A stretch of DNA of 50,805 nucleotides, from the IMG/VR virus record IMGVR_UViG_3300048919_000427, positions 1 to 50,805 of that record. One strand, 5' to 3'. The stretch's first letter is position 1; every line of letters begins with the position of its first letter. This DNA is from a virus. Below the pieces are notes generated by a model. The model was not told where the DNA came from. It ran no database searches and was given only the letters and a program-made list of their open reading frames with translations. Below are positions 4,906 through 23,762 of this stretch, in pieces. Both the position numbers and the translations under genes were made by a program.

Positions 4906-5595
4906 TTAAGGAGCTGGAGCAAGACAGAATGATAAGTAAGCATTATGAGATCCGTCTTGTGGAACAAATGCAGCAGAAGGGTTCACTGGTGATTCAAATG
5001 TGCTAGGATCGCTGGCATCAACAATTTCAATTCTAATTCGAACATACTGATTAGATGTATTTTCAAAACGGGCACCTTCAGCACCATTATAGTAACCGTC
5101 AACGTTTTGTACTGGTTGCCAATTTGCATCTAAAGCAGTTAGAACAACACCGTGAACATTCCATAAATAATTTTTAAAATCATCACCTCTAAATATTTTA
5201 GTATTAGAGAATTGATCGTCATTCACGTATAGGAAATAAGTCCCTCCATCTGAAAGAATTTGTGCTCCCATTTTTGCGGTTGCACCGGCACAGCCAATAG
5301 GTACTACTGTACTACCACTATTAGAAGATTCTTTTACACGTAAAACTTGAATACTTTCAATGTTTGTATCAAGTGCATCCTGTACGGCGACATAATCTAA
5401 ATTCTTTGGATCATAGCCAAGCATTCCGCGTATGTTTGCTTTGGTAATGGTCATTGGTTTATCTAAACGGCCGCGCTTAAATTTTCCAACAAAAATATTA
5501 CTAATCGGTGTGGATCCTGTAGATCCCGTTTTATCTGTAACGCCTTGATATTGAATACCTGGTTCATTACCTAAAATTGATGTGATGTGTGGCAT
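4906..5595 (-). CDS. Sheath-N-domain variable protein 1
   Basis: A 229-residue virion-associated candidate. Residues 1-86 are nearly identical to those of the proteins at 22226-22894 and 23097-23762 and similar to 5707-6561. This part (NIFVGKFKRGRLDKPMTITK ... LDTNIESIQVLRV) resembles the N-terminal domain of phage tail sheath proteins. The rest (87-229) is unique here and looks like a beta-rich domain. The likely arrangement is a shared docking domain with a swappable exposed domain. It has its own late promoter (5644-5658), and its GAGG ribosome site lies inside a leader hairpin (5601-5630). Function beyond a virion or tail role is not known to me. Confidence 0.7.
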   Translation of the reverse strand: MPHITSILGNEPGIQYQGVTDKTGSTGSTPISNIFVGKFKRGRLDKPMTITKANIRGMLGYDPKNLDYVAVQDALDTNIESIQVLRVKESSNSGSTVVPIGCAGATAKMGAQILSDGGTYFLYVNDDQFSNTKIFRGDDFKNYLWNVHGVVLTALDANWQPVQNVDGYYNGAEGARFENTSNQYVRIRIEIVDASDPSTFESPVNPSAAFVPQDGSHNAYLSFCLAPAP

Positions 5596-5600
5596 AAGTT

Positions 5601-5630
5601 TTACCTCTGTTTTTTTATATTTTGAGGTAA
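5601..5630 (-). promoter_or_regulatory. Leader hairpin covering the ribosome site of the gene at 4906-5595
   Basis: Minus-strand arms TTACCTC and GAGGTAA (perfect 7 bp, extendable with a bulge) place the GAGG ribosome site inside the stem, 6-10 nt before the ATG. Confidence 0.6.
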
Positions 5631-5643
5631 CTTTTTTACTAAT

Positions 5644-5658
5644 TTTATTGAAATTCCA
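5644..5658 (-). promoter_or_regulatory. Late promoter motif, upstream of the gene at 4906-5595
   Basis: TGGAATTTCAATAAA on the minus strand, first T 63 nt before the ATG and directly behind the terminator at 5662-5686. One of 14 such sites. Confidence 0.7.
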
Positions 5659-5661
5659 TAA

Positions 5662-5686
5662 TAAAAAAGAGGGCAGAGCCCTCTTA
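5662..5686 (-). terminator. Terminator after the gene at 5707-6561
   Basis: Minus-strand stem AAGAGGGC / GCCCTCTT with a 3-nt loop and a run of T. Confidence 0.9.
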
Positions 5687-5706
5687 CTTCGTGATATTAA
5701 AATTTA

Positions 5707-6561
5707 CTATATTTTAATAAGTTGCCCACTTTTATTGACTGCATCAAAAGTGATTTTTCCGACTGTTGCCCCTTCGGTACCATTAGTCAATCTATAAGCC
5801 ATTAACCTGTGATCGATTAAAATATCTTGAATGATTTGCCCGCCGACATTATCAAAATTTACATCATTCTGTACCATTTGACCGCCCTTGTATGTAGCAA
5901 ATCTCAATTTGAAATTCCCTGATAGAACCTCACTAAACCAGAAGGCCCTTAATTCAATTTCAAAGTTATTAGCTGTAGGGTAGTCTGTTTGAAGTTGAAT
6001 CAGATTTAATAAAATATCTTCACGGCCAGTTCTTCTATTGTCTCCACTCCATACTAAATAAGAGCTATCACTTCCGTTTTTATTCCATCCTACAATTACT
6101 TCCCTTGTTGGTTTGGTAATCAATGTTCGTGTATCCATATCTGTTCCACCAGAACTATCCCAAATATAACTAATGACCGCAAAATCAAAGGGTAAAATTT
6201 GCGTTACATTTGGATCTTCAGGCTCGGGTTGAGGTGTTGGCTCTTCTGGTTGTGGTTCAGGTTGCGGCTCGGGATCTTCTGGGAAAAATGGTTCTGTATA
6301 TATTCTTAAAACTGATATTTCATCAATGCCATTATCTAGAGCATCATATACGGCTACATAATCAGGATTCCAAGGTTCATGACCCAAAACGCCACGTACA
6401 TTGGCTTTAGTCACTTTCATTGGTTTATCAAGACGACCGCGTTTAAATTTTCCTATAAATACATTGTTAAAAGGAATTTTAGGAGTGTTATCGTCGATAA
6501 CGTTTACTCCATTGTTTTGAATTCCTGATTCATTTTGAAGGGGGGGAGTTATTTGAGCCAT
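5707..6561 (-). CDS. Sheath-N-domain variable protein 2, with Pro/Glu-rich linker
   Basis: About 284 residues, the most divergent of the four relatives. The N-terminal sheath-like domain (NNVFIGKFKRGRLDKPMKVT ... VYDALDNGIDEISVLRI) is followed by a repetitive linker of Pro, Glu and Gln (EPQPEPQPEEPTPQPEPE), then a C-terminal domain of about 165 residues, probably beta-sandwich, with Trp and Gly. The linker suggests that the C-terminal domain projects from the virion. I start it at the ATG at 6561 (MAQITPP) because this aligns with MPHIT in the relatives; an upstream TTG at 6570 is in frame. It has no late promoter motif and probably depends on read-through from the lysis genes. Confidence 0.68.
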   Translation of the reverse strand: MAQITPPLQNESGIQNNGVNVIDDNTPKIPFNNVFIGKFKRGRLDKPMKVTKANVRGVLGHEPWNPDYVAVYDALDNGIDEISVLRIYTEPFFPEDPEPQPEPQPEEPTPQPEPEDPNVTQILPFDFAVISYIWDSSGGTDMDTRTLITKPTREVIVGWNKNGSDSSYLVWSGDNRRTGREDILLNLIQLQTDYPTANNFEIELRAFWFSEVLSGNFKLRFATYKGGQMVQNDVNFDNVGGQIIQDILIDHRLMAYRLTNGTEGATVGKITFDAVNKSGQLIKI

Positions 6562-6605
6562 GGTTATCAAGTCAATGAGCCCTGCTAGCAGGGTTATATA
6601 TGTAA

Positions 6606-7217
6606 TTAAGATGTGAAGAGTTGTTTCTCTGCGGTACGGCGGTTTACTAATCCTTCAACCCTGCGACCAGCATCAAACACCCAACGATCAAATTGTTCAG
6701 CTGCGGCGCGACTCTGATTTGCATTGATTAAACGTAGCATCGTGCTTTTGATAAATTGAGTTTCACCCACGTTATAGACAAAGCTCGCTAGTGCATCGAA
6801 TTGATTTTGTGTAATATTTACAGTCACATATCGATCAAGACAAGTATCTACCCACTTGCAGTCATTCATAAGCCATTGTGTTGCTTGATCTTCTGTACAA
6901 CTATCACCTTGTTTAACTGCACGGCCATCCGGATATTTAATAGTACCGAAGCCAATAGTCCAAACATTGCCAGTATCTAAGTACGCACTTGCTCGAAAAC
7001 CTTCTAACTTTTTGATTAGTGCATAGCCTTTAGCTGATATATCTCGAGAACCAGAAGCACCGTTAAGCGTAAAGTTAATTGATTTAGCAAAAGTCTCTAA
7101 ACCTACTGCAGCAATAATTTGATCGCTTGCATTAACTTGCTCTTGGGTTAAGGCCCCACCTGACATGGTTTTTAACCATGAAAATGTCGCAGCAATTTGT
7201 TCTTGGTTGTTGTTCAT
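6606..7217 (-). CDS. Endolysin, T4/P22-type lysozyme (GH24)
   Basis: A 203-residue muramidase that should cut the glycan strands of peptidoglycan at lysis. The GH24 catalytic pattern E-x8-D-x5-T is exact: E72 (KKLEGF), D81 and T87 (YLDTGNVWTIGFGT). An N-terminal region of about 55 residues precedes the lysozyme domain and has no signal-anchor helix, so a holin is needed for export. I choose the ATG at 7217, which has GGAAGG 9 nt upstream and overlaps the preceding stop as ATGA; the ATG at 7226 would leave no space for a ribosome site. Confidence 0.93.
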   Translation of the reverse strand: MNNNQEQIAATFSWLKTMSGGALTQEQVNASDQIIAAVGLETFAKSINFTLNGASGSRDISAKGYALIKKLEGFRASAYLDTGNVWTIGFGTIKYPDGRAVKQGDSCTEDQATQWLMNDCKWVDTCLDRYVTVNITQNQFDALASFVYNVGETQFIKSTMLRLINANQSRAAAEQFDRWVFDAGRRVEGLVNRRTAEKQLFTS

Positions 7218-7474
7218 AAGTCGCATCCTTCCAATTTTTTAAAATAAACAGTTAGGAAGTGAATACATAATGCAGCTAGCAAGACGAAAAATATAAAAGT
7301 TCCAAGTAGATTTTTATTTGCAATAAAACTGCATGACGAAAGTATGCTTAAAACAATAATCCAACTTCGCTTACAGCTAGCTGTATATAAAATATGGTCG
7401 GGCAAAAAAGTACATATAACCGTGATGAGAATAATCGTTAAACAAATAATGTTTTTAAGTGTGAAAAAGTCCAT
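7214..7474 (-). CDS. Small membrane protein of the lysis cassette
   Basis: An 86-residue hydrophobic protein with about three predicted membrane helices (LKNIICLTIILITVICTF, WIIVLSILSSCSF and LGTFIFFVLLAALCIHFLTV). It sits between the probable holin and the endolysin and overlaps the endolysin start by 4 bp, so the two are translationally coupled. A second holin or antiholin is the natural guess, but no family motif is visible. GAGG lies 7-8 nt before the ATG. Confidence 0.6.
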   Translation of the reverse strand: MDFFTLKNIICLTIILITVICTFLPDHILYTASCKRSWIIVLSILSSCSFIANKNLLGTFIFFVLLAALCIHFLTVYFKKLEGCDL

Positions 7475-7476
7475 GA

Positions 7477-7971
7477 TTAAGCCTCATCACGAAAGGTTTT
7501 TTTGATTCTTTCTAGATCTTCTTCAGTTACACCTGTTTTCTCTTCTGCTTTTTTGATCATTGCAGCGTGGAATAAATGAATAATTGCAGGGGAAACGAAA
7601 GAAACGCCAGCGACCCAGAAAATTACGCCCGTAGTAATTTCATTCTCTGTATGAATGTAATATACAAATGCAATAAAACCACATGTGATTGATATTAATA
7701 GTTTTATTGATTTTGGAATTGGCTTAGCGCCATATTGAGGGGTGGGAAAGAAGTAACCGATCGTGCTACCTAAGATCAGTACAATCACGCAAGCTACAGT
7801 CAAAATAAAATCACTATGACTTGCTGTAGATTCTCGAAGGACTTCATTGGTCAGCAATGAAGCAGTTTTGGTGTCCTTATTAAAGGCTGCAAAAGCAGCC
7901 TCAGTACAAGGGAGAAATAACCAGACAATGCGCCAAAGCAATGCACTGATTATTTTTAAATTGTCGCTCAT
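7477..7971 (-). CDS. Probable holin
   Basis: A 164-residue membrane protein with three or four hydrophobic segments (around residues 8-28, 55-75, 90-107 and 112-135) and a charged C-terminal tail (KKAEEKTGVTEEDLERIKKTF). Position directly upstream of a small membrane protein and an endolysin makes a holin role likely: it would permeabilise the inner membrane to release the lysozyme. The sequence alone does not settle the holin class. I saw no spanin pair in the cassette. Confidence 0.6.
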   Translation of the reverse strand: MSDNLKIISALLWRIVWLFLPCTEAAFAAFNKDTKTASLLTNEVLRESTASHSDFILTVACVIVLILGSTIGYFFPTPQYGAKPIPKSIKLLISITCGFIAFVYYIHTENEITTGVIFWVAGVSFVSPAIIHLFHAAMIKKAEEKTGVTEEDLERIKKTFRDEA

Positions 7972-7982
7972 TATTAGCTCGC

Positions 7983-8237
7983 TTATCTGTAACTCGCAAA
8001 ACTGCGAAGTAATTCAGCGTTCATTTGAGCATTTTTCTTCTCTTCTTCTTTCTTAACCTTCCATGCCTCACTCGCATAATATTCGTCGATAAAGTTAAAA
8101 GGCATTTCTAATACAGCTTCTAATTTGATATCACTATCGAGACTAAACTGTTGAATTTTCTTCCACCACGATTGCAAAAAGCTGTTTTGCTGGTCCTGTG
8201 ATTGCAGAATTAATGCGAAATCGAACGGGTGCATCAT
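7983..8237 (-). CDS. Overlapping downstream gene, possible frameshift extension of the gene at 8143
   Basis: An open frame of about 84 codons from the tandem ATGs at 8237/8234 (MMHPFDFALILQSQ) to 7983, open upstream to a TTG at 8267. It overlaps the 3' end of the 239-residue gene by roughly 90-125 bp in the frame reached by a -2 (or +1) slip. The C-terminal part is charged and helical (KVKKEEEKKNAQMNAELL). Tail-assembly chaperones are often made as a short form plus a frameshifted longer form, and a G5 run (8243-8247) lies at the right place. Independent translation from the ATGs, preceded by GGGGGT, is the alternative. Confidence 0.55.
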   Translation of the reverse strand: MMHPFDFALILQSQDQQNSFLQSWWKKIQQFSLDSDIKLEAVLEMPFNFIDEYYASEAWKVKKEEEKKNAQMNAELLRSFASYR

Positions 8238-8862
8238 CCGTACCCCCATTGATCTTGTTAAGAACAATTCCTTTGTAATAACTGATATTTACAAGAGTGT
8301 GGAGCTCTTGATCTAGATTTCGAAATTTGTAAATTAAGTCGTTTAAAATTGGTTGATCAAGTTCATTTAACGTATCAAGTCTGTTTTTGATCATCTGACC
8401 CGTATAACCAATATCCTTTAATAGATCTGCTTGAATTGGTGGAAGCTCATCACAACCAATTTGCATGCACATGGCTCCTAAGATCCAATCCGCAGTATTT
8501 TCACATCCAATTTCTAAAGCTTCAGCTTCAATGCCTGTTAAATGTCGAACTTGAATATTATCGCCTTTAATCCAATCACGTTTAAAAACACTCAAATCTG
8601 AATGTAAAAATTGCTTAATGTTGATCGACTGATCGATGTTTTTGTCTTCAATAGCATCTAAGTATGTAAGAAGAATTGCATAACGTTCTTGAGTCGTTAA
8701 AGTGCGGGCATTAACGTCAGATCCAATGATTGTACCCAAACCGCGAGTAAGCATAGCTTCATAATGCGTTGATTTAAGTTTTGCCATATCTTGAATGACA
8801 CTATTTTTTAAGTGATTAAATTTATAGTTGCGATTCGCAATCGTCTCTTGCATGAAGCTCAT
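8143..8862 (-). CDS. Baseplate or tail-assembly chaperone-like protein
   Basis: A 239-residue protein between a probable tube/baseplate protein and the lysis cassette. The middle contains ALEIGCENTADWILGAMCMQ with a following IGCDELP, then a long helical C-terminal half. The size, the adjacent overlapping frame and the tail context recall T4 gp26/gp51-like hub chaperones or lambda G/GT-type chaperones; I cannot confirm either. A good AGGG ribosome site precedes the ATG, which follows the upstream gene at once. Confidence 0.45.
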   Translation of the reverse strand: MSFMQETIANRNYKFNHLKNSVIQDMAKLKSTHYEAMLTRGLGTIIGSDVNARTLTTQERYAILLTYLDAIEDKNIDQSINIKQFLHSDLSVFKRDWIKGDNIQVRHLTGIEAEALEIGCENTADWILGAMCMQIGCDELPPIQADLLKDIGYTGQMIKNRLDTLNELDQPILNDLIYKFRNLDQELHTLVNISYYKGIVLNKINGGTDDAPVRFRINSAITGPAKQLFAIVVEENSTV

Positions 8863-8865
8863 AAG

Positions 8866-9642
8866 TTACCCTAAATATAGTTTAGAAATATTGTTTTTAT
8901 CCCAAGCTTCGCGACTCAGGAAATTAACTGGTACCGTAATAAACATTCGATTCCCTTTTGAATCCTTAGGCATAGTTAAAGATTCTGAATAACTTTGAAT
9001 AAGGAGTGGTGCGTATCTTTTACCGCCGTAGTACACAGCAACGAACGGCGGTACCTTTGAGGGAAATAATGATTCAAGAGTTCTTTCTTGTGCAAAACTT
9101 GCTAAAAGTGATTGGTCGCTTAATTCCTCTGGTAAGGACCATTGTTTTAATAGATCTAACTGATCTTCTACTTCATTCTTTGCATCTTCCCATGCCTCAA
9201 AATATAGAGTGAATGGCATGTTTACAGGATTCGTTGATGTAAAAATTTGAGTAGAGTTTTCTTTAGTTAAGCTGCTACGACCATTGAGGTATCTTAATTT
9301 TTCTTGCGTCGCATCACTCAAATCAGCCCCAGCTGTGCCGAACAAAACGTTTACAGTATCAACCCAATTGCCAGATTGTAGTTGTGCTAACAGCGTTGGA
9401 AGTTTTTGCTCCGGATTAGAGTTTTCAAATGGTGAAGTGTACTGATTATCAATTGTCATCTCACCATCTATGCCCAATGCGGTTATTTGATCTGCTTCAC
9501 CTTCAAGCAAGTTGCCTTTATCATCACAACGACGGATCCGAACTAAAAGATGATTGTTAATCGATCCAAAATTTGAAGAGTTTTTATATTGGGTGGGTTC
9601 TTTAGGAGTGTTTTCAGGTTCAACTGGTGGGTTAAATGCCAT
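8866..9642 (-). CDS. Probable tail tube-baseplate junction protein
   Basis: 258 residues. A Pro-rich N-terminus is followed by a region like tube-baseplate adaptor proteins: PFTLYFEAWEDAKNEVEDQL, then LKQWSLP, PPFVAVYYGGKRYAPLLIQS and a closing FITVPVNFLSREAW, the usual order of beta elements in gp48/gp54- or gp53-type proteins. It is the first gene of a late unit running through the chaperone-like and lysis genes, with promoter motif at 9699-9713 and a leader hairpin (9649-9682). The assignment is by pattern only. Confidence 0.5.
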   Translation of the reverse strand: MAFNPPVEPENTPKEPTQYKNSSNFGSINNHLLVRIRRCDDKGNLLEGEADQITALGIDGEMTIDNQYTSPFENSNPEQKLPTLLAQLQSGNWVDTVNVLFGTAGADLSDATQEKLRYLNGRSSLTKENSTQIFTSTNPVNMPFTLYFEAWEDAKNEVEDQLDLLKQWSLPEELSDQSLLASFAQERTLESLFPSKVPPFVAVYYGGKRYAPLLIQSYSESLTMPKDSKGNRMFITVPVNFLSREAWDKNNISKLYLG

Positions 9643-9648
9643 GACGCA

Positions 9649-9682
9649 CCGATAAAATGAATAATTAAACCCATCTTATCGG
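9649..9682 (-). promoter_or_regulatory. Leader hairpin upstream of the gene at 8866-9642
   Basis: Minus-strand arms CCGATAAGATG and CATTTTATCGG pair over 11 bp with one wobble, ending 6 nt before the ATG. Confidence 0.5.
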
Positions 9683-9698
9683 CTTGAAAACTGTAGTT

Positions 9699-9713
9699 TT
9701 TATTAAGATTCCA
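9699..9713 (-). promoter_or_regulatory. Late promoter motif, tube junction/lysis unit
   Basis: TGGAATCTTAATAAA on the minus strand, first T 71 nt before the ATG at 9642. Confidence 0.7.
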
Positions 9714-9963
9714 TCTTATTTTTTAACGTAGTTTGGAAAGTCTTTTAAAATATTTTTACATAAGTGATATTCCTATTAATAAAGTAAAAACTGGTATTAA
9801 AAATAAGGAATCAGCAACACAAGACCTAAAGTTGTTTTTGGATAGAATACCGCTAATAAACAACTAAAAAACAGATAGTTAATTGTAATATTTGGTCAGT
9901 GTAATATATTTTATTATTAACTATATTGATCAAAAAATACCACATTTAATTTTGGATAAAATT
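9714..9963. other. Intergenic region upstream of the plus-strand membrane genes
   Basis: AT-rich and without a convincing gene. It must hold the promoter of the plus-strand membrane gene at 9964; I could not single out a strong -35/-10 pair. An in-frame TTG at 9892 extends the downstream reading but has no ribosome site. Confidence 0.4.
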
Positions 9964-10350
9964 ATGGGAAAAAATTCTGGAGATTGGTCTGGTCTTTTAA
10001 TTTTTATTCTAATAGCTCTTGCAGTGATCGGTTCGATTATTCTTTTTTTTCAAGATTCGTTTTCTTTACCAGGTCAAATAGCTCAAGAAGTTGGTCTAAA
10101 ATTCAGCGGTTTTGTAATTATTGTTTGGTTACTTTCATTAGCTTTTAACAGTATTTTTACTGTTCTATTTACTATTGCTATTCCAACATCAATTTTTTGG
10201 TATCGACCGATATTAAATGAAAAAGCTCTACAGGTTATTAAAACAACTGGTGAAATCCCTTTTTATGGAACCAATAATGGTCAAATGATCATTGCTTTTA
10301 TCGTAGCCTTAGCCTCTTTTGGATTTTGGGCATTTCACAAATATAAATGA
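9964..10350 (+). CDS. Membrane protein A of a paralogous pair (moron candidate)
   Basis: About 128 residues with hydrophobic helices near residues 10-30, 48-80 and 107-123. The C-terminal part (YRPILNEK ... GEIPFYGTNNGQMIIAFIVA ... FGFWAFHKYK) matches the neighbour at 10474-10857 (IRPILEYK ... GKIPIYVTHSGQGIILLTIS ... ALWAYMDDS), so the two genes arose by duplication. It lies on the plus strand inside the minus-strand late block and ends at its own terminator, the layout of a phage moron expressed in lysogens. A role such as superinfection exclusion is a guess. The ATG at 9964 has GGAT 8 nt upstream. Confidence 0.6.
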   Translation: MGKNSGDWSGLLIFILIALAVIGSIILFFQDSFSLPGQIAQEVGLKFSGFVIIVWLLSLAFNSIFTVLFTIAIPTSIFWYRPILNEKALQVIKTTGEIPFYGTNNGQMIIAFIVALASFGFWAFHKYK

Positions 10351-10369
10351 GCAAAATAGTGATTACTTG

Positions 10370-10392
10370 GGCCTCTTTAGGAGGTCTTTTTT
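10370..10392 (+). terminator. Terminator after membrane protein A
   Basis: Stem GGCCTC / GAGGTC (one G-U pair), 5-nt loop, then a run of T. Confidence 0.8.
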
Positions 10393-10473
10393 GAATAAAA
10401 ATTTAATAATGGTTAATGTATTATATGTTTTTATAAAGTATATTTATCTAAAGTGACTTTATACTAATTAAAA

Positions 10474-10857
10474 ATGTTAAATGTATCAAATCCCGCAAAT
10501 ATCATTATTGTGAGTATTATTTTACTCATTACATTAATGACTACATTGACTTATCATTTTCCAAAAATGATAGGAATCGATATCTATACAAGCCATGAGG
10601 TATTATTTAATACTCTTCTATATGCAGTTGTAATAGGACTGTTCAGCTTCAAATTTCGTTATACCATTAAAATCCGTAATTCTTTAATTTTCTCCTTACC
10701 TATCTACTTTTTTTGTATTCGTCCAATTTTAGAATATAAAGAAAATCATGCGATTGGAAAGATACCTATATATGTGACACATTCAGGTCAGGGGATAATA
10801 TTATTGACTATTTCTCTGTTAGCTTGTGCTTTGTGGGCTTATATGGATGATTCGTGA
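10474..10857 (+). CDS. Membrane protein B of a paralogous pair (moron candidate)
   Basis: 127 residues with about four membrane segments (near 8-28, 45-60, 70-85 and 107-122). It shares the C-terminal pattern RPIL-K-G-IP-Y-T-GQ-II-W-A with the gene upstream but differs elsewhere, indicating an old duplication. The 120-bp gap and the intervening terminator imply a separate promoter. It ends at a bidirectional terminator shared with the LPD3 gene on the other strand. Function unknown; membrane location and moron-like placement are the only clues. Confidence 0.6.
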   Translation: MLNVSNPANIIIVSIILLITLMTTLTYHFPKMIGIDIYTSHEVLFNTLLYAVVIGLFSFKFRYTIKIRNSLIFSLPIYFFCIRPILEYKENHAIGKIPIYVTHSGQGIILLTISLLACALWAYMDDS

Positions 10858-10885
10858 AAAAAGCCCTCTTAATGAGGGCTTTTTT
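10857..10885. terminator. Bidirectional terminator between membrane protein B and the LPD3 gene
   Basis: AAAAAAGCCCTC / GAGGGCTTTTTT with a 5-nt loop, symmetric, so it works on both strands. Confidence 0.92.
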
Positions 10886-10896
10886 AATATTTGGGG

Positions 10897-12804
10897 TTAT
10901 TTCATAGCTTCATCTTTATAAATAAACAGGTTCAGTAAGGTATCGCGCGCATCTTCTTCCTCGTTATCATCAGAGATAGCGCTATCAAGAAGATGTATAT
11001 TGACAGAGGTCTCGCCATTTTCTAGAATAGAGGTGTCTAGGTGGCAGCGACCTATGCGGATCAGTGGATCAAGTTCTTCTTGTGAGACTCCCGTCGTTGG
11101 AATAGCTGTTACATTAAGCCCGTCTAATAGCGGGCTTTTTGTATTTTTAGGTATGTCTTTTTCTTCAATGCGATGATCATAGTGATATTGGCCTTTATCA
11201 TCTTCACGGATTACAAAACGAACTTTTAGGTGCTCACCTTGTAAAATAACCGGGGCTTGTAAGTAGTGATAAGCCTTGATATTTGACTCCGTTTCAGGTG
11301 TATAAGTGGTTTTTTCATCAACTTTTTTAGCGATGAAAATAAGCTCTTTTAAAGCTGCAATGACCTTGAGCTTTTTGGGGTCTGCACTATATCTAAAGAT
11401 TTTCTTCATTCCGTGTTTACGGATTTCGACAGGTTTATCTAACGCTGGGCATTCAACCCATTCACCAAGCATCTTTGTAAACTCTTCTTTAGCAGCATTT
11501 CTAAGCGCTTTAAGACCTTCGGGTGTATCAGGGAATTCACCAAGCTCGTTCCCATTTAGAACCACAGCTTGACCGCTATGAAGTATACTTGTCCCCTTTG
11601 CTGGAACTTGTTTATCCCCTTTATGGGATAAATCATCAGGTTTATTGGCTTTAGCTGCTCCGTTTTCTGCAGCCACTGAATTTTCAAAATTTTCTTGCTG
11701 CTTTTGAGCGTGTTCATCGATTAGTTTTTGCTGGTCTTCAATTTGCTGATCTAAAAAAGCCAACGTATCTTGTGCAGTTGTTAAAGCTTGTTTTGCGTTA
11801 TCAAATTTTTGCTGAAGACGTAATTTTTCGGCTTGCGCTCGAATATAACGAGGATGGTTACTGACAAGTAATTTCATCATTCGTTGAGCAATCAAATTGA
11901 ACTTTTTAGAGTCAACTGCACGCGGTTGTAGTGCTGCTGTTACATCACGGCGGTTTAACATCCATTTCCATGATGTGAGTACATCTTCTGGTGAAAGTTT
12001 GGATGGGGTTGAGTCTGGATTATTGAGAATTACAGTAATTGTTTGAGTGTCAGACATCGTAAATACTGCAGCAATGTTTACCACTCCTAAGCGCTTAAAT
12101 GGCTTTAATTTAGTCACCTCTTCAACGTAGAATTTTTGGTCACCGAGTGCTTGCAGTTGCTTTGTGATTTTATCAATGACTTTGTCGAATTCCTGGTATT
12201 GAATCACCATGGCGTCGTGAATAGCGAATTCACAGTGTTGATCAATCAAGGTTTCGGCAATTTGTCTTGGTGTTACTGAGTCAAATAATTCGGCACTAGA
12301 ATCATTTTGCACAATATCAAAGATGAACTGAGCAAAAAGGCCGCCATGTGATTTAATTGAGCACTCATCCCAAATGGGTTGCTCTTTACTAATTCGATTA
12401 TTGAAATGCTCAGCATCATCTTTCAATAAGTACTGAGTGTTTGAAGGGATTTGTGCACTATTAAGGAAGCGCTTCATTCCGCTATCAGTGAGCGATTGAG
12501 AGCTGTGTAATTTCCCATTCATTAACGGTAATAAATAGCGTTTTACAAGCCGTTCTGCTTGATCTTCACTCACAGCACCAGCTACGGCAACTTGTTCAGT
12601 ACGATCCGGTTGAACAACATTAAATACTGACCAGTTTGCAGACCCGGCATTATCGCAAAGAATTGCCGAAATCTGTCTAGATTGGCCTTGTAGTGTGCCG
12701 ATATTTGCAATGCACAAATCATTGTGTATTGATCCATCGGGCATTTTAAAATTTCGCTCGTCACCAGTTTGGTATACAGCATTAAAAAGGGCAGTTTTTG
12801 ACAT
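10897..12804 (-). CDS. Large polyvalent-type protein with LPD3-like domain
   Basis: A 635-residue protein in the late block with its own promoter motif. The region at about 440-560 (GEWVECPALDKPVEIRKHGM ... KKLKVIAALKELIFIAKKV ... IKAYHYLQAPVILQGEHLKV ... DDKGQYHYDHRIEEKD) follows the pattern of the LPD3 domain of phage polyvalent proteins, which are packaged in the capsid and enter the host with the DNA. A coiled-coil stretch (about 325-375) separates this from an N-terminal region of unknown fold. Co-injection and host takeover or counter-defence are inferred from the family. The start codon sits in a leader stem (12801-12845). Confidence 0.65.
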   Translation of the reverse strand: MSKTALFNAVYQTGDERNFKMPDGSIHNDLCIANIGTLQGQSRQISAILCDNAGSANWSVFNVVQPDRTEQVAVAGAVSEDQAERLVKRYLLPLMNGKLHSSQSLTDSGMKRFLNSAQIPSNTQYLLKDDAEHFNNRISKEQPIWDECSIKSHGGLFAQFIFDIVQNDSSAELFDSVTPRQIAETLIDQHCEFAIHDAMVIQYQEFDKVIDKITKQLQALGDQKFYVEEVTKLKPFKRLGVVNIAAVFTMSDTQTITVILNNPDSTPSKLSPEDVLTSWKWMLNRRDVTAALQPRAVDSKKFNLIAQRMMKLLVSNHPRYIRAQAEKLRLQQKFDNAKQALTTAQDTLAFLDQQIEDQQKLIDEHAQKQQENFENSVAAENGAAKANKPDDLSHKGDKQVPAKGTSILHSGQAVVLNGNELGEFPDTPEGLKALRNAAKEEFTKMLGEWVECPALDKPVEIRKHGMKKIFRYSADPKKLKVIAALKELIFIAKKVDEKTTYTPETESNIKAYHYLQAPVILQGEHLKVRFVIREDDKGQYHYDHRIEEKDIPKNTKSPLLDGLNVTAIPTTGVSQEELDPLIRIGRCHLDTSILENGETSVNIHLLDSAISDDNEEEDARDTLLNLFIYKDEAMK

Positions 12805-12845
12805 CAGGTTCGCCTTATGAGTATTTAACTCATTGTTGCTGATGT
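12801..12845 (-). promoter_or_regulatory. Leader hairpin containing the start codon of the LPD3 gene
   Basis: Minus-strand ACATCAG pairs with CTGATGT, which contains the ATG at 12804. A smaller stem ATGAGT / ACTCAT lies inside (12817-12833). Confidence 0.5.
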
Positions 12846-16624: not shown

Positions 16625-16638
16625 GGTTTTTACTCACT

Positions 16639-17091
16639 CTACATAAAGCGTTGAGGCTTGTGATAGTCATAATCAATGGTAAAGGGCGTTTCCACAAAGG
16701 CTTCCTTTTTCATTGTTTCTTTCGCTAGTGAGTAGGCTTGTTCTGCTTCACTTGAAGTTAGACCAAAGCGATCGCCACCCATGGCACCACTTGCTTCCAT
16801 TCGTTGAGCTTGAATGAAATTAATATGAGCACGTACAACGGCTTCTAAAATGCCCCATTCACCAACTGAAATTACTGAGTTTTGATCAATTAAAAAGCTT
16901 GTTTGCAGCTGGCTCTTTGTAATGGCCCAACCTGCATAGAACAAAAAGTCGGTTTTTAGGACTTCAATAATGTCTTCTTTCGCCAAGCTATAGCCGATCG
17001 CCATATAATGACTAGAAAGCAGTTCAGCAAGTGCATGAATTGCACCTGCCTCACTGATTTGAAAGCTTCTATCATATTGTTTTAATAACAT
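16639..17091 (-). CDS. Tail-region protein of unknown function
   Basis: 150 residues, between the tube-like gene at 17095 and the hub gene, with gaps of 3 and 14 bp, so clearly part of the same unit. It is largely helical, with no motif that I recognise. Its place suggests a tail or baseplate assembly part. The ATG at 17091 has AGGAC about 10 nt upstream. Confidence 0.6.
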   Translation of the reverse strand: MLLKQYDRSFQISEAGAIHALAELLSSHYMAIGYSLAKEDIIEVLKTDFLFYAGWAITKSQLQTSFLIDQNSVISVGEWGILEAVVRAHINFIQAQRMEASGAMGGDRFGLTSSEAEQAYSLAKETMKKEAFVETPFTIDYDYHKPQRFM

Positions 17092-17094
17092 GAT

Positions 17095-17721: not shown

Positions 17722-17783
17722 AGCTTGGATATTCCGAAAATATGAAATGTTCGGAATATTCTGCAAGCTTTTGAAAATGGCCT

Positions 17784-17798
17784 TTTAACGCAATTCCA
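17784..17798 (-). promoter_or_regulatory. Late promoter motif, tube-like/hub/spike unit
   Basis: TGGAATTGCGTTAAA on the minus strand, first T 77 nt before the ATG at 17721. A hairpin with arms ATATTCCG / CGGAATAT lies between the two. Confidence 0.7.
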
Positions 17799-17815
17799 CC
17801 CTACAATCTCAAAAA

Positions 17816-18430
17816 TTATTGATACTGAAAGGCTCCAACTTTCGTACCAATCATAGCCGCGCCCATATTTACATCAATTGAATCGCCTAAATTGATACGG
17901 ATCCCCACGGTCGGGAAAATATGAGCTGGTACTAAGTTTTGTAATGTTGGTGTCAATTCAATTAATTCCTGACGATCGACTTCATCATCCATGAGAATAA
18001 AAATACGTGACGTCAAAAAACTATTTTCTGTTTCATGTTCTGTTGCCAAAACAGGATATTGATTCACACGTGGAATACTGTGATAGAGCCGAATAATTTG
18101 CCATTGGTTAGGCCACAGCATTTGAAGTACGAACTCCAAAAATGCAAGGCCTTGTTTTGAAGACAAAGATTTCCAATTTGCATAGATAACCCGCATGATC
18201 AGAGCACTCACCTGAGGCCGTCTGAGTACAACTAAACCATCTTGTTTTGTAAAACGCTCGACTACATTGGCACTGCCAAGATGAGGCATGCCGTAATAGT
18301 GAATATCATTGAGTTGATCTTTGAAAAGTTGCTCAAATAAACGAATGAAAAACTCTTTTAAGAAAGCTTCATCTTCATCGAAGGTATCAGACTGCTTTAG
18401 CGGGTAAAGTAGATCTAGATGATCGACCAT
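17816..18430 (-). CDS. Baseplate wedge protein, gpI-like position
   Basis: 204 residues, directly after the gpJ-like gene and overlapping it by 16 bp, as gpI follows gpJ in P2-type baseplates. Visible elements include DTFDEDEAFLKEFFIRLFEQ near the start and WPNQWQIIRLYHSIPRVNQY in the middle. The family call is from gene order; the sequence itself is not decisive. The GGGGGAAG ribosome site lies inside the upstream gene. Confidence 0.55.
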   Translation of the reverse strand: MVDHLDLLYPLKQSDTFDEDEAFLKEFFIRLFEQLFKDQLNDIHYYGMPHLGSANVVERFTKQDGLVVLRRPQVSALIMRVIYANWKSLSSKQGLAFLEFVLQMLWPNQWQIIRLYHSIPRVNQYPVLATEHETENSFLTSRIFILMDDEVDRQELIELTPTLQNLVPAHIFPTVGIRINLGDSIDVNMGAAMIGTKVGAFQYQ

Positions 18431-19866
18431 CGGCTTCCCCCGCTATTCTTTGTTTGCTTGATATCTAAAGTAATACTATCTGCGGTTAAATAGGTCCATT
18501 GATGAGGCTTAATTGGATTGTTCTCTAGATCCTCCATCATTATCTTAAAATCGCTTGTACGATCTTGAAATGCGCTGATATTGTCACTAAGTAGTTTTGC
18601 AATTTCTTGTGAGTTAAAACCATCAGCAATATAGTAACTCGTCGCTATTGTTTCGCGGCCGTAGTACTTCAAAAGCAAAGTTTTAATTTGCTCTTTAACA
18701 GCCTCTGCATTGTGGACGGGTGAAAGTAATCCTTGAATTGTTAAATTGAAAGCTCTTTCTTCGACCGCATGAAAGACGACTTTGCCCTTATACAGGTTAT
18801 TCAACAACGCAATATAGTTTGCCAAGTCTTCCTGCAACAAGGTCTGTTCGGGAGAGTTTTTTGCGGCTACGGCTACAAACATTTTATTAATGTTTAAATA
18901 ACTCGGTCCGTAATTCGCTTCTTGTTCAACTTCATTCCATACATTTAAAAAGTTAGAGCGTGGTAAAAATCGCTTTAAACAGGAATAGTTATAATTGCCC
19001 AAGAATACAGCGTCATCTGAATCAGGATATGAAGAAAGTAAGCGTAATTGTTCAATATTCAGAGGATCTGCACCGGTTCGGAATAAACCATCAGTTTTAA
19101 AGCGAATTACAGCGCGTTGTTCTGTTGCTGTATCAACTGTCTCTAAAGATGCTTCACGCAATAAGGCCGCATCAATTTCACCAAAACTTTCAATAATCTG
19201 AATCGTTAAAATCGTGCCCGCTTGTAAGGTAGTGCCAAAACGCGAGCTATCGCCAAACTCCAAGGTCATTTTACGATGGGTATTGGTTTTCAGAATAATT
19301 GCTTTATCGTTGGCGTTTGTATTCATCCAGCGTGTGACAAAGCCATAGCTGTTTCCGTCTTGATCAGTAACCGATAATTGCACTAAATCTACGTCACTTT
19401 GTAGATCAAGTGCGTAATTATGAAATTGTTCTGTCACAGTCGGACTATAAGTAATTTCTCTTAATTCTGATTGTTCAGCAAGAACAGCTACTGTTTCACC
19501 CTTCGCGGCATTAACGCTCTGTAATAAGCGCCATGGACGACCTTGACCGTCGAGAATTACACGACCGCTTGCAAGTGATAAGTTATTGTTACCATTATTT
19601 ATGACTTCAATATAGTGCTGACACGGGGTACATAAGGGCAAAATCCCTTTGTTGCTAGCATCCGCTAAAATAGTGGCATCGCGTGTTTTGATGAAGGGTT
19701 CAAGTTCTGAAATATCAACATCACGACCAAACTCTGCCAAGACATGTTGAATGACCTGTAAAGGTGCCGTAATGGTTGGATCCCCAGCTGCATAACGCGC
19801 TGCGTATGCCGGATAATCTTGCAGTACTTGTAAAGATAATTCCTGAATTTTAGCCAGCGTTGGCAT
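18415..19866 (-). CDS. Baseplate wedge protein J (gp47/gpJ-like)
   Basis: A 483-residue baseplate J-like protein, part of the wedge that links the hub to the fibres and triggers sheath contraction. The pattern fits the family: an N-terminal helical region (SLQVLQDYPAYAARYAAGDP, then ITAPLQVIQHVLAEFGRDVD), a middle beta-rich domain and a C-terminal section with ERAFNLTIQGLLSPVHNAEA followed by helices. It overlaps the gp25-like gene upstream and the gpI-like gene downstream (order W-J-I). GGAGA lies before the ATG. Confidence 0.78.
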   Translation of the reverse strand: MPTLAKIQELSLQVLQDYPAYAARYAAGDPTITAPLQVIQHVLAEFGRDVDISELEPFIKTRDATILADASNKGILPLCTPCQHYIEVINNGNNNLSLASGRVILDGQGRPWRLLQSVNAAKGETVAVLAEQSELREITYSPTVTEQFHNYALDLQSDVDLVQLSVTDQDGNSYGFVTRWMNTNANDKAIILKTNTHRKMTLEFGDSSRFGTTLQAGTILTIQIIESFGEIDAALLREASLETVDTATEQRAVIRFKTDGLFRTGADPLNIEQLRLLSSYPDSDDAVFLGNYNYSCLKRFLPRSNFLNVWNEVEQEANYGPSYLNINKMFVAVAAKNSPEQTLLQEDLANYIALLNNLYKGKVVFHAVEERAFNLTIQGLLSPVHNAEAVKEQIKTLLLKYYGRETIATSYYIADGFNSQEIAKLLSDNISAFQDRTSDFKIMMEDLENNPIKPHQWTYLTADSITLDIKQTKNSGGSRWSII

Positions 19867-20191
19867 CGTAAGTATCTCCTGTCGGATTTCTTAAATCTGC
19901 TTGTGAAGGGAGTGGTATCAAAATAGTGCCGATCTCAATAAAAAATTCTTTTTTATCAATATCAATAGTGCGGCTTCTTATATTTAATTTGTCAGTGGGA
20001 AGGCTTCTAAATAAAGGAATATCTTCACGCAGCCACTGCAAAATCAGATCAGCACTATCTTCGGTCATAGGCTTAAAAAGAATTTCTTGCCAATTACGAC
20101 CATAGTTCACGCCGATATAGCCATTTGGCCTTGCGTTTAACCAGTGATTGATAATTTTGATCGTATTTTCAACGGTTAATGGATAGCTCAT
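19850..20191 (-). CDS. Baseplate wedge protein, gp25/gpW-like
   Basis: About 113 residues, the typical size of gp25/gpW. VENTIKIINHWLNARPNGYI ... RNWQEILFKPMTEDSADLIL ... and a strand-rich end (EFFIEIGTILIPLP) match the gp25 lysozyme-like fold in outline. It precedes and overlaps gpJ, as in P2. I choose the ATG at 20191, which overlaps the preceding stop as ATGA; the frame is open upstream to 20278 but that part is the shadow of the membrane gene. Confidence 0.68.
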   Translation of the reverse strand: MSYPLTVENTIKIINHWLNARPNGYIGVNYGRNWQEILFKPMTEDSADLILQWLREDIPLFRSLPTDKLNIRSRTIDIDKKEFFIEIGTILIPLPSQADLRNPTGDTYDANAG

Positions 20192-20556
20192 AAGTAACGT
20201 TCTACGACTGAAAATGCTATTTGATAGATAGCAACACGCCATAAAAGCATGAGTGCTTGAATAAATAGGAATACCCAAATTTCAAGGGACCAAATCCCCC
20301 ATATTTCTAATATTCTTGCCTCTGAATAGAGGACGTATAAGAATGGAATACAGCTCACAAGAACTCTTAATAGAAGGTTAAACTTGTAACTCTGTAATAC
20401 GGTTTCGAATAATGCTCGATTCTGTTTATTACAAATCACTGAAAACCGATATAAAAGTGATTGGCCTTCAGTTTTTTTTAACATGAGCCGATATTGAAGA
20501 ATGCTAAACCATAACCAACCAAGACAAATTACACAGATATGAAACTTTAGAATCAT
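20188..20556 (-). CDS. Membrane protein inside the baseplate operon
   Basis: 122 residues with an N-terminal hydrophobic segment (LKFHICVICLGWLWFSILQY) and two more helices in the C-terminal half (LLLRVLVSCIPFLYVLYS and IWVFLFIQALMLLWRVAIYQ). It overlaps both neighbours by 4 bp, so it is translated with the baseplate genes. A membrane protein here is unusual; it might help lysis or anchor assembly at the membrane. I do not recognise a family. Confidence 0.6.
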   Translation of the reverse strand: MILKFHICVICLGWLWFSILQYRLMLKKTEGQSLLYRFSVICNKQNRALFETVLQSYKFNLLLRVLVSCIPFLYVLYSEARILEIWGIWSLEIWVFLFIQALMLLWRVAIYQIAFSVVERYL

Positions 20557-21080
20557 GGTGTACCTGCATTTGTCAAAGCTTGGTATTCATTCTTTTTAGA
20601 CGCTAATAACTGTTGTTTTTCAGCAATTTTTTTATTTGCTGCATTAACCAGCATCAAAACGCTTTCGGTCTGTTTTTTGATGTAGTCTTTTCGGCTTACT
20701 GAGTCATTTGGAACTTGTACATGCTGTTTCTGACGAGCTTGATCAAACTTGGGTTGTTCAGCCTTAATTTTAAGTGCTAACTCTTCAATTCCAGCTTTAA
20801 AGTCCTCTAGGTTGTCGTAGTCCATTACATGACGTAACGGGACCTCTTTTTTATTGAGGTAGGTCTTGATAACGTCGCCGTCAGTTCTTAACGTAAGCGT
20901 AAGGGATTGACCCTCTTCCAAATTAAAAAGAGCGTCTTTTGTTGCAGCACCTGCCACTTTTCGCATTTTATCAACAAGAATGTATACAATTTTTTGCTGA
21001 GTGGCTTTCTCAAGCGTCTTTTTGATAAACGTGATTAATTCATGTGTTTCAGATAATGAAGCGAGTTCAAAAGTTGCCAT
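20553..21080 (-). CDS. Virion-region protein of unknown function
   Basis: 175 residues leading the gp25-J-I unit. The first two thirds are mixed alpha/beta (ITFIKKTLEKATQQKIVYIL, TLTLRTDGDVIKTYLNKKEV), the last third is a long coiled-coil-like helix (KQTESVLMLVNAANKKIAEK). The start codon lies within a perfect 10-bp leader stem (21074-21126). No family is recognised; a tail assembly or injected protein are both possible. Confidence 0.6.
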   Translation of the reverse strand: MATFELASLSETHELITFIKKTLEKATQQKIVYILVDKMRKVAGAATKDALFNLEEGQSLTLTLRTDGDVIKTYLNKKEVPLRHVMDYDNLEDFKAGIEELALKIKAEQPKFDQARQKQHVQVPNDSVSRKDYIKKQTESVLMLVNAANKKIAEKQQLLASKKNEYQALTNAGTP

Positions 21081-21126
21081 AGCATTTAACCAAATAATCT
21101 TTAATCACTATTTTGGGCTATGGCAA
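21074..21126 (-). promoter_or_regulatory. Leader hairpin containing the start codon of the gene at 20553-21080
   Basis: Minus-strand TTGCCATAGC and GCTATGGCAA are exact complements over 10 bp; the second arm contains the ATG at 21080. The loop is about 33 nt. Confidence 0.65.
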
Positions 21127-21135
21127 AACTTGAAA

Positions 21136-21150
21136 ATTAAGGATATTCCA
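21136..21150 (-). promoter_or_regulatory. Late promoter motif, baseplate wedge unit
   Basis: TGGAATATCCTTAAT on the minus strand, first T 70 nt before the ATG at 21080. Confidence 0.7.
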
Positions 21151-21155
21151 CACAA

Positions 21156-21530
21156 CTAGCTGTGATTAAAATCATGTGGAAAACGTTCTGGAATGCTAGA
21201 AAGGATCTGCTCAGTAAAGGTTTGCAAATTTTCATAGCAATGGTACTGATCGGATAAAACACTAAACGGATGCTGGGGCTCAGAAGCAATGAAAAGGTTG
21301 GAAAATCGAAGTCCTTCATCTAATCTAGAATCACTTTCCCAAACAAAAATATACTGTTGTAAGTGTCTAGGAATGATCTGAACAAGCCCTGCTTTAGCAC
21401 CAAAAACCATAATCACAGTGTCTTTTTCAATAAGATTAAGCAAAATATCGGTGAGCCCATATTCTAGGCCTTTTGCTGAAATAACAATCCGCTTCTCAGG
21501 CTTTCCGAACCATCCCATAAAGACACTCAT
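21156..21530 (-). CDS. Unknown protein downstream of the glycosyltransferase
   Basis: 124 residues, following the glycosyltransferase gene directly, with AGGTGGG before the ATG. Alternating strands and helices (RIVISAKGLEYGLTDILLNL, TVIMVFGAKAGLVQIIPRHL, QQYIFVWESDSR) suggest a compact alpha/beta fold. No known family is apparent. It probably belongs with the sheath-domain protein and glycosyltransferase upstream in one unit. Confidence 0.6.
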   Translation of the reverse strand: MSVFMGWFGKPEKRIVISAKGLEYGLTDILLNLIEKDTVIMVFGAKAGLVQIIPRHLQQYIFVWESDSRLDEGLRFSNLFIASEPQHPFSVLSDQYHCYENLQTFTEQILSSIPERFPHDFNHS

Positions 21531-22214
21531 TTAGCCCACCTTAATCATATTTCCATGATGGTCAATCACATCAGCTTTACCCCATGTTTGAGGGTAATTC
21601 ACTGGTGGACTTGGCTTGTCATAATTTTTGATCTCACCGTTATTTACATACTTATCTTTTTGTTCGCGTGTGTTTTGAATTGCAGCCACTCGATACGATG
21701 CGTGAATTGGATAATATTTAAGTTTGTGAGCTCTTACTCTTAAGTCGCCATCGTCTCCTTTTAAACCTACAATGGTTTCGTCATAACCTTGTAAACGGTA
21801 AAAAGCATCTCGGGTATATCCTACTCGTCCTAAAATACCTTCGTTTTCAATCCCTAATCTTGGTAAAAAGAGCTGGTAGTCCTTAAGTAAGCGCAATTCA
21901 TATAAAAGCCCGTCATATATGTAATTATCGCCGTCCAAATTAAATAGAATGTCACCTGTAGCGAGTCGATGAGCTACATTTTTCGCATAAGCCGATGTAT
22001 AAGCGTAATCATCGACCATTTGAAAATATTTAAGTTGGCCGTTCTCTAGATACTCTTGAAAATTTTCAAAGATCCAATCTTTTAAACCATCAGGCGACTG
22101 ATAATCTAACAAAATAATCTCTGAATGCTCATCGAGCATTTTTAAATTACCAGGTAAAGTCTGGCTCAATTGCCACAAACGGCCTTTACACGTTGTACAG
22201 AATGAAATACGCAT
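21531..22214 (-). CDS. GT-A glycosyltransferase, family 2-like
   Basis: About 227 residues. MRISFCTTCKGRLWQLSQTL at the N-terminus is the nucleotide-sugar-binding start of GT-A enzymes; NVAHRLATGDILFNLDGDNY contains the metal-binding D-x-D (D94-G-D96); RDAFYRLQGYDE and GLKGDDGDLRVRAHK match the conserved second half. It should move a sugar from a nucleotide donor to an acceptor in the cytoplasm. Its unit contains a sheath-domain variable protein, and a decayed second copy follows another such protein (23001-23081), so the pair seems linked: it may glycosylate that virion protein, or alter the host surface. The ATG at 22214 has AAGGA 9 nt upstream. Confidence 0.78.
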   Translation of the reverse strand: MRISFCTTCKGRLWQLSQTLPGNLKMLDEHSEIILLDYQSPDGLKDWIFENFQEYLENGQLKYFQMVDDYAYTSAYAKNVAHRLATGDILFNLDGDNYIYDGLLYELRLLKDYQLFLPRLGIENEGILGRVGYTRDAFYRLQGYDETIVGLKGDDGDLRVRAHKLKYYPIHASYRVAAIQNTREQKDKYVNNGEIKNYDKPSPPVNYPQTWGKADVIDHHGNMIKVG

Positions 22215-22225
22215 CAAATAGTTCC

Positions 22226-22894
22226 TTATGTACTTGGCTCATAAGCACAAAGTTCTACGTTTTCAATTAATTTTATAGTGCTATAAACTGGATCATTCAC
22301 GCTATTCGTACTATTACTTTGCAGAACCACACTTGCTGTTAATTCCAGTTTTACACATTCGGGTTGTAAATTTTGAAGGTAAAGCTCCCCGTTATTGCTT
22401 GAACTAAGTGAATATGAGAGGAGGTTCATTAATTCAGTTTCATAATTTGAAGTAAAAACTGCGCTTATGCCTTCCTCAATTGAATAACTTGTAGTGTTTG
22501 GAATAACAGCATTAAAGACTTTTTCATTAATTTTAAGTTTATAGATCACTGAACCATAGTTCATTGGGCCAGATTGAGCATATAGGTCTGATAATGTGTA
22601 TAAGTCTGATGTACAGACGCAATCATTTTCCGAAACACGTAAAACCTGAATACTTTCAATATTGGTATCAAGAGCATCTTGTACGGCGACATAGTCCAAA
22701 TTCTTAGGATCATAGCCGAGCATTCCGCGTATGTTAGCTTTGGTAATGGTCATTGGTTTATCTAAACGGCCACGTTTAAACTTGCCGATAAAGATATTGT
22801 TAATCGATGTGGATCCTGTAGATCCTGTTTTGTCTGTAACGCCCTGATATTGAATACCCGGTTCATTACCTAATATTGTTGTGATGTGTGGCAT
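22226..22894 (-). CDS. Sheath-N-domain variable protein 3
   Basis: 222 residues. Residues 1-86 are almost identical to the proteins at 23097-23762 and 4906-5595. The C-terminal domain (87-222) is related to that of 23097-23762 but clearly diverged; both keep Cys at the start, SVIYKL/SIIYSL, STNSV-DP-YS and end VELCA. It therefore looks like a duplicate that diversified in its exposed part. It is followed 11 bp later by the glycosyltransferase gene. Promoter motif at 22947-22961. Confidence 0.7.
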   Translation of the reverse strand: MPHITTILGNEPGIQYQGVTDKTGSTGSTSINNIFIGKFKRGRLDKPMTITKANIRGMLGYDPKNLDYVAVQDALDTNIESIQVLRVSENDCVCTSDLYTLSDLYAQSGPMNYGSVIYKLKINEKVFNAVIPNTTSYSIEEGISAVFTSNYETELMNLLSYSLSSSNNGELYLQNLQPECVKLELTASVVLQSNSTNSVNDPVYSTIKLIENVELCAYEPST

Positions 22895-22946
22895 GGTGTT
22901 AGCTCATATAAAACTAACTTATTATTAAATTTTTAAAACTGGCCGT

Positions 22947-22961
22947 ATTTTTAAAGTTCCA
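22947..22961 (-). promoter_or_regulatory. Late promoter motif, sheath-domain protein 3 unit
   Basis: TGGAACTTTAAAAAT on the minus strand, first T 67 nt before the ATG, right at the T-run of the preceding terminator. A short GTTAG / CTAAC stem ends 3 nt before the ATG. Confidence 0.7.
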
Positions 22962-22962
22962 T

Positions 22963-22993
22963 AAAAAAAAGATCCATTTTAGGGATCTTTTTT
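22963..22993 (-). terminator. Terminator between the two duplicated sheath-domain units
   Basis: Minus-strand AAAAAGATCC / GGATCTTTTT with a 7-nt loop and a T-run. Confidence 0.88.
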
Positions 22994-23000
22994 AAAAATA

Positions 23001-23081
23001 TTTGGCTTAAAAAACTACTATTTCAAAGTCTTTCTCGATATAGCCATAAGCTACCTTTGGAGGTTGGCCAGAATGGAATAC
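23001..23081 (-). pseudogene. Remnant of a second glycosyltransferase gene
   Basis: Minus strand, 16 nt after the stop of 23097-23762, begins ATGCGTATTCCATTCTGG and reads MRIPFWPTSKGSLWL before a stop. The intact gene at 21531-22214 begins MRISFCTTCKGRLWQ. About 33 of the first 43 bases match. Only this start survives; the rest of the short region ends in another frame (PPKVAYGYIEKDFEIVVF then stop). It shows that a module of sheath-domain protein plus glycosyltransferase was duplicated and one transferase lost. Confidence 0.65.
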
Positions 23082-23096
23082 GCATTTAAAAATTCT

Positions 23097-23762
23097 TTAT
23101 GGACGCTGTTCAAAAGCACAAAGTTCTACGTTATCAATCAAATAGTAGTTACTATAAATAGGATCATCTACACTATTCGTACTTTCACTAGGCAGCACTA
23201 AGTTTGCCGATAAAAAAACATTTAAACATTCATTGGTTAAGTTTTGAAGAGTAATTGTTCCGTTATTAGCAACACTCACTGAATAAGATACTATTCCATT
23301 AAAATTGGATACTTCACCAATAACTGCATCCAACCCGTTTAGAATTGAAAAGGACTCAGCATATGGCACAACTGCTTCGTACACTTGATTATTCAAACTT
23401 AAAGAATAGATAATCGATCCGTGTTGTTGCATAGGATATGTAAATTCATATGCATCATTTAATGTATAAGTGTCTGATTCGCAGTTACAAGCAGGTACCG
23501 CAACTCGCAACACTTGAATACTTTCAATATTGGTATCAAGAGCATCTTGTACGGCCACATAGTCTAAATTCTTAGGATCATAGCCGAGCATTCCACGTAT
23601 ATTTGCTTTGGTAATAGTCATCGGTTGATCTAAACGGCCACGTTTAAACTTGCCGATAAAGATATTGTTAATCGATGTGGATCCTGTAGATCCTGTTTTG
23701 TCTGTAACGCCCTGATATTGAATACCCGGTTCGTTTCCTAATATTGTTGTGATGTGTGGCAT
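23097..23762 (-). CDS. Sheath-N-domain variable protein 4
   Basis: 221 residues with the shared 86-residue sheath-like N-terminal domain (one Lys-to-Gln change in GRLDQPMTITK relative to 22226-22894) and a C-terminal domain diverged from it. The upstream 60 bp are nearly identical to those of 22226-22894, supporting recent duplication of promoter, leader and N-domain together. It is the first such gene after the tail sheath unit, in line with a tail location. Confidence 0.7.
   Translation of the reverse strand: MPHITTILGNEPGIQYQGVTDKTGSTGSTSINNIFIGKFKRGRLDQPMTITKANIRGMLGYDPKNLDYVAVQDALDTNIESIQVLRVAVPACNCESDTYTLNDAYEFTYPMQQHGSIIYSLSLNNQVYEAVVPYAESFSILNGLDAVIGEVSNFNGIVSYSVSVANNGTITLQNLTNECLNVFLSANLVLPSESTNSVDDPIYSNYYLIDNVELCAFEQRP

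Follow-up and report, generated by a model that had tools for sequence, protein, structure and literature searches.

The stretch of DNA analysed here (the window) comprises positions 1 to 50,805 of the IMG/VR virus record IMGVR_UViG_3300048919_000427, a linear virus record of 50.8 kb. Since it encodes an S24-type repressor, ParA, a tyrosine integrase and a Rep3 initiator, it is likely a phage-plasmid fragment, and its relatives include Acinetobacter plasmids. The subject of the analysis is the contractile tail sheath of this element together with four proteins that share an N-terminal domain (N-domain) and differ in their C-terminal parts (heads). An initial annotation, made from the DNA letters, had pointed to a common N-terminus in these proteins, near-identical in three of them. 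All four open reading frames (ORFs) were confirmed, each on the minus strand, and the region is organised as follows (aa, amino acids).

4906..5595, minus strand: protein 1, sheath N-domain with a 141-aa head; orthologues of the head occur in the relatives G001, G002 and G003
5332..5595, minus strand: sheath N-domain of protein 1, from the N-domain comparison
5707..6561, minus strand: protein 2, diverged N-domain, a Pro/Glu/Gln-rich linker directly after it and a head of about 165 aa
6298..6561, minus strand: diverged sheath N-domain of protein 2
22226..22894, minus strand: protein 3, sheath N-domain with a beta-rich head of about 134 aa (AlphaFold2 model)
22631..22894, minus strand: sheath N-domain of protein 3
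23097..23762, minus strand: protein 4, sheath N-domain with a head of about 133 aa, at the locus after the gene of the 247-aa protein
23499..23762, minus strand: sheath N-domain of protein 4
23871..24614, minus strand: conserved 247-aa protein (phrog_1053); its gene comes directly behind the sheath gene in relatives with and without the split
24616..25938, minus strand: tail sheath core of the P1 gp22 type, in which the N-terminal arm is missing along with the first segment of domain II (phrog_1036, AlphaFold2)

The N-terminal 87 residues of proteins 1, 3 and 4 show pairwise identities of 95%, 94% and 99%, and the diverged N-domain of protein 2 is 59% identical to the other three. A search of the record with protein 3 returned precisely four matching places with E-values from 4e-146 to 4e-28; chance is therefore excluded. 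Between the N-domains of proteins 1 and 3, 21 of the 27 DNA differences fall in synonymous codons, which indicates that the domain is under selection at the protein level. The heads of proteins 3 and 4 are 50% identical, and in the head comparison those of proteins 1 and 2 matched neither each other nor the former two, in agreement with the earlier description of the C-terminal parts as diverged or unrelated.

Compared with phrog_1036, the tail-sheath profile of PHROG, the N-domains match its beginning (positions 4-103, E 1e-3 to 1e-4) and the product of 24616-25938 matches positions 120-530 (E 5e-92). Because the two match complementary parts of it, the sheath gene of the window truly lacks its N-terminal piece, as the initial annotation had suspected, and the synteny with the gene of the 247-aa protein indicates that the core is the true sheath orthologue. 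Sheaths found outside Acinetobacter (Pseudomonas, Burkholderia, Xanthomonas phage Rb1) are 539-550 aa long, and their first 90 or so residues align with the N-domain, sharing the motif SGVQ...IGRF.RGR.DK...LG; the Acinetobacter sheaths, of 429-444 aa, begin in the alignment where the N-terminal segment of the full-length sheaths stops. A profile built from cores and full-length sheaths matches the solved sheath protein gp22 of phage P1 (E 3e-22), and the N-domain profile alone matches residues 4-89 of P1 gp22 (E 0.0022). The N-domain is the missing part of the sheath, namely its handshake arm together with the first segment of domain II.

The AlphaFold2 models agree with this. In the model of the core (pLDDT 89.6), residues 1-437 align to residues 103-529 of P1 gp22 (9ay3) with Z 23.8, so that both a sheath fold and P1-type sequence homology are found for the core; neither the arm nor the first domain II segment is part of the chain of any truncated core, both being encoded separately. 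Structure prediction of the N-domain, which had been proposed as a check, gave a sheath-like fold: its residues 25-91 align to P1 gp22 30-100 with 26-28% identity, and their best structural matches are sheaths at residues of about 20-100 (Z 5-6). The arm (residues 7-31) has low confidence when the domain is modelled alone. As modelled, the two pieces tile one sheath protein, covering residues 30-100 and 103-529 of P1 gp22. The sheath resemblance of what had been called a docking domain is thus upheld; rather than adding a docking module, the domain is one part of a two-chain sheath, complementary to the core.

The same complementarity was found across relatives. Searches of whole records yielded 1, 1, 3, 2, 2 and 1 separate N-domains in six Acinetobacter records, and in all six other records, which have a full-length sheath, the one N-domain lies within the sheath. 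In a larger set, each of the 31 Acinetobacter records with a sheath gene has a truncated core, and 30 of them also carry one to seven separate N-domains, the exception being a 14-kb fragment. All 32 full-length-sheath records of this set contain precisely one N-domain, within the sheath ORF. The full-length records number 38 in all (6 + 32), with pKF715C and the P. fluorescens plasmid present in both sets, and some records duplicate each other (for example, G013/G027 and G014/G028). Docking of the N-domain onto a complete sheath was also considered and is ruled out, the sheath of the window lacking the piece and the relatives with a complete sheath having no separate N-domain.

The headed proteins might also be intracellular decoys that block sheath assembly of competing phages or of type VI secretion systems (T6SS), since a handshake arm on its own could conceivably poison a sheath. 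This is very unlikely. Apart from the 14-kb fragment, all records with a truncated sheath have a free N-domain as well, and none with a full-length sheath do, which argues that the free N-domain is needed by the phage that encodes it. Moreover, the N-domain genes lie in the late region, and some heads match tail-fibre and receptor-binding families.

As to its origin, a tail sheath gene would have been divided near the point that corresponds to residue 100 of P1 gp22, once, in one Acinetobacter clade of P1-related phage-plasmids. In five relatives (L048, L055, L091, L093 and L096), N-domain and core are adjacent genes, and the core starts at an ATG of its own, no more than about ten bases from where the N-domain gene stops, as expected for a gene cut in place. 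Joining of the two by a frameshift or readthrough was considered for L055 and L091 and was rejected, as an in-frame TAA is followed by the ATG of the core and the arrangement is read as two genes; G011 is also listed with a longer open frame (533 aa), at odds with the TAA in its DNA. Split and unsplit sheaths each form one group in trees built with and without the N-domain columns, and rooting by P1 gp22 and other single-chain sheaths suggests that the split is the derived state. The 247-aa gene follows the sheath in both groups. In Acinetobacter phage vB_AbaM_ABMM1 (ABMM1), which bears the split, the free 92-aa N-domain comes after this gene, at the locus of protein 4 and in the place held by proteins 3 and 4 of the window.

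Decay of a defective prophage would also leave separate N-domains and a truncated sheath, and many of the records are indeed plasmids or contigs without known particles. Such an origin is scarcely credible, however: the split is conserved over 26 sheath cores forming one group in the tree, the DNA differences are mostly synonymous, N-domain and core co-vary, and ABMM1 forms plaques and has a contractile tail. The split of the sheath is strongly supported by sequence.

With near copies removed, 63 N-domain proteins remained in 25 genomes, some of which are incomplete. Their lengths range from 91 to 1256 aa; 12 of the 63 do not exceed 110 aa, and no protein this short occurs in 14 of the 25 genomes. 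Linker-like repeats (Pro/Glu, Val-Pro-Asp or Gly-Asn) begin shortly past the N-domain in seven proteins. The heads of some relatives match known adhesin or receptor-binding families. The head of a 717-aa protein of G003 (L041:10682-12841) matches PF23844/PF23845, the TIM barrel of non-contractile tail sheaths, and also phrog_15324, a PHROG labelled 'tail sheath and receptor binding'. The 1256-aa protein of L088 (9983-13759) contains BspA-type leucine-rich repeats (LRR_5) and a weak Ig-like match, the L049 and L116 heads match DUF285, and the L042 head matches tail-fibre PHROGs, 'collagen-like' being our reading of its Gly-rich repeats. A single phage-plasmid, G004 (L042, L044, L256 and L257), has seven N-domain matches, among them two proteins with long Gly/Asn linkers and one collagen-like protein. 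Protein 2 has a counterpart in the closest relative (L038 of G001, 9436-9753) that ends at the Pro-rich linker, at 97 aa, and has lost its head. A shufflon or inversion was considered as the origin of the different heads and rejected: none of the inverted repeats sought around 21-26 kb were found, one imperfect 21-nt pair was found around 4.9-7.0 kb, and nothing further supports such an origin.

The head of protein 3 is associated with one more gene.

21531..22217, minus strand: family 2 glycosyltransferase beside protein 3 (Pfam PF10111/PF00535)

A glycosyltransferase gene directly follows this head type in the window, G001, G003 and the A. oleivorans plasmid; in A. boissieri it follows a different head. 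These linked homologues lie in L037, L040, L006 and L124. This linkage suggests that the protein 3 head type may be glycosylated. A stretch of about 70 bases after protein 4 resembles the start of the glycosyltransferase gene, and this apparent remnant suggests a tandem duplication of head and glycosyltransferase.

Comparison among related elements, another check proposed at the outset, indicated that heads and N-domains have separate histories. Between 29 genomes, N-domain identity follows core identity (Mantel r 0.91, p 1e-4), a correlation for which shared ancestry alone can account in part. In 81 of 96 comparisons, an N-domain was closer to that of a paralogue in the same genome than to the N-domain of the protein that owns the homologous head elsewhere. 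For example, a head of G004 and a head of G024 are 37% identical over 478 columns and their N-domains 43%, and the same G004 protein has an N-domain 93% identical to that of a paralogue in its own genome. Like N-domains are found within a genome, those of many paralogues being 90-98% identical, and heads are common to different genomes. The exceptions include the diverged protein 2 class, in which N-domain and head are kept together across genomes. The heads are modular and exchangeable, as had been claimed for a set of tail surface proteins; the proteins themselves are predicted to be subunits of the sheath and not its accessories. Receptor range and immune evasion, the purposes first suggested for such heads, are conjectural.

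It is possible, though doubtful, that each phage builds its sheath from just one N-domain protein and that the other headed paralogues occupy the first ring at the baseplate or the last ring at the neck, where they would serve assembly or attachment. The diverged class, the gene of which adjoins that of the endolysin (5707-6561 and its relatives) and whose head family is retained in several relatives, fits special rings, as do the short forms. Nevertheless, a short copy is lacking in 14 of the 25 genomes, some of them incomplete, and the near-identity of many paralogous N-domains suggests equivalent seats. In the A. oleivorans plasmid the sole N-domain gene encodes a headed protein; if this plasmid makes virions, every position should carry that head, and headed subunits should be able to fill the whole sheath.

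The reading preferred here is that the element probably has a two-chain sheath, split once, that serves as a display scaffold. The small piece (about 88-100 aa), with the arm and the beginning of domain II, and the large piece (about 430-475 aa), which is the rest of the sheath, would co-fold into one sheath subunit, like TssB/TssC of the T6SS. In P1 gp22, the arm comprises residues 3-34, domain II residues 35-99 and 243-425, and domain III, outside the sheath, residues 100-242 (PMC10304247). A cut near residue 100 would leave the C-terminus of the small chain at the root of the outer domain III, and the heads should face outwards, because the P1 chain continues at this point into domain III; they probably stud the tail exterior. 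The small piece would have been duplicated, its copies acquiring different heads, some on Pro- or Gly-rich linkers. As one small piece is required per subunit, the sheath would be a scaffold of many positions with one or several kinds of head. The P1 sheath consists of 53 rings of six subunits, and the N-terminus of gp22 swings nearly 100 degrees upon contraction (PMC10304247); for a shorter tail, such as that of ABMM1 with 118 nm, a hundred or more positions are estimated. Most likely the heads, repeated along the tail, would attach it multivalently to cells or surfaces. The balance of evidence tips slightly towards mixed sheaths in a single virion, in which several kinds of adhesin are spread over many positions, the heads being traded and the part that fits the sheath being matched to the core by concerted evolution.

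Several points weigh against this reading. Its support consists of sequences and models of single chains, many of the records come from plasmids or fragments that may not be active phages, and the window itself is a 50.8-kb linear fragment. None of the four heads of the window has a convincing Pfam match, those of proteins 1-3 having been scanned alone. The model of the protein 3 head gave weak beta-sandwich matches in Foldseek and, in a second structural comparison, FliD and flagellin surface domains at Z about 5, matches that were not used. For ABMM1, the text of the paper does not name the bands confirmed by liquid chromatography with tandem mass spectrometry (PMC10345192), or say whether the 92-aa protein was among them.

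The open literature searched, a scope that leaves out most subscription journals and all preprints, held no description of a two-chain phage tail sheath. The function-unknown families phrog_14345, phrog_5283 and phrog_24956 gain a likely identity as sheath subunits with heads, and the contractile tail would offer a natural, genetically separable display site.

Other features were observed besides. The window encodes at 28376-29863 a tail spike or fibre with YadA-type head repeats and an endosialidase chaperone domain, and a RES-domain protein (40810-41502) near a helix-turn-helix regulator-like protein (39541-40215), possibly a RES-Xre toxin-antitoxin pair. A relative, Acinetobacter soli plasmid pGFJ2 (L020), carries an annotated lasso peptide cluster at 19644-23874.

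Among known systems, P1 gp22 (PDB 8jaj, 8jan and 9ay3; phrog_1036) is homologous to both pieces and has the same fold, but it is one chain from one gene, whereas the split sheath of Acinetobacter has two chains, the small one in several headed versions. A two-chain sheath is likewise formed by TssB/TssC (VipA/VipB) of the T6SS, where the small chain TssB contributes the handshake arm and two strands of domain 2 (PMC5807055). The N-domain matches the equivalent elements, the arm and the start of domain II in P1 gp22, and the core model aligns with TssC chains at Z about 17; no TssB was among the profile or structure matches of the N-domain, an absence that carries no weight either way. The T6SS sheath is recycled by ClpV, and we know of no TssB with exchangeable heads in multiple paralogues. 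Nothing indicates a common origin of the two splits. The phage sheath would be a second case, beside the T6SS, of a sheath cut after the handshake arm and the start of domain II, and why the cut falls there becomes a testable question.

The same split is seen in ABMM1, with a core of 431 aa and the free 92-aa N-domain, both annotated as 'tail sheath protein'. Unlike the four headed proteins of the window, its single N-domain gene is headless. In the relevant passages of the paper, ABMM1 is a propagated, plaque-forming phage with a contractile tail of 118 nm by transmission electron microscopy, and both pieces are listed as sheath proteins, Gp12 and Gp14, with no remark there on the split (PMC10345192). 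The jumbo phage CBB, a 'hairy' phage, bears whisker-like structures along its contractile tail (PMC5259590), a likeness by description only. The head of the G003 protein is of the type of N4 gp65, a non-contractile tail sheath and receptor-binding protein that recognises NfrA (PMC12892993). This type forms the non-contractile sheath of podophages, and in G003 it is fused to the N-domain of a contractile sheath.

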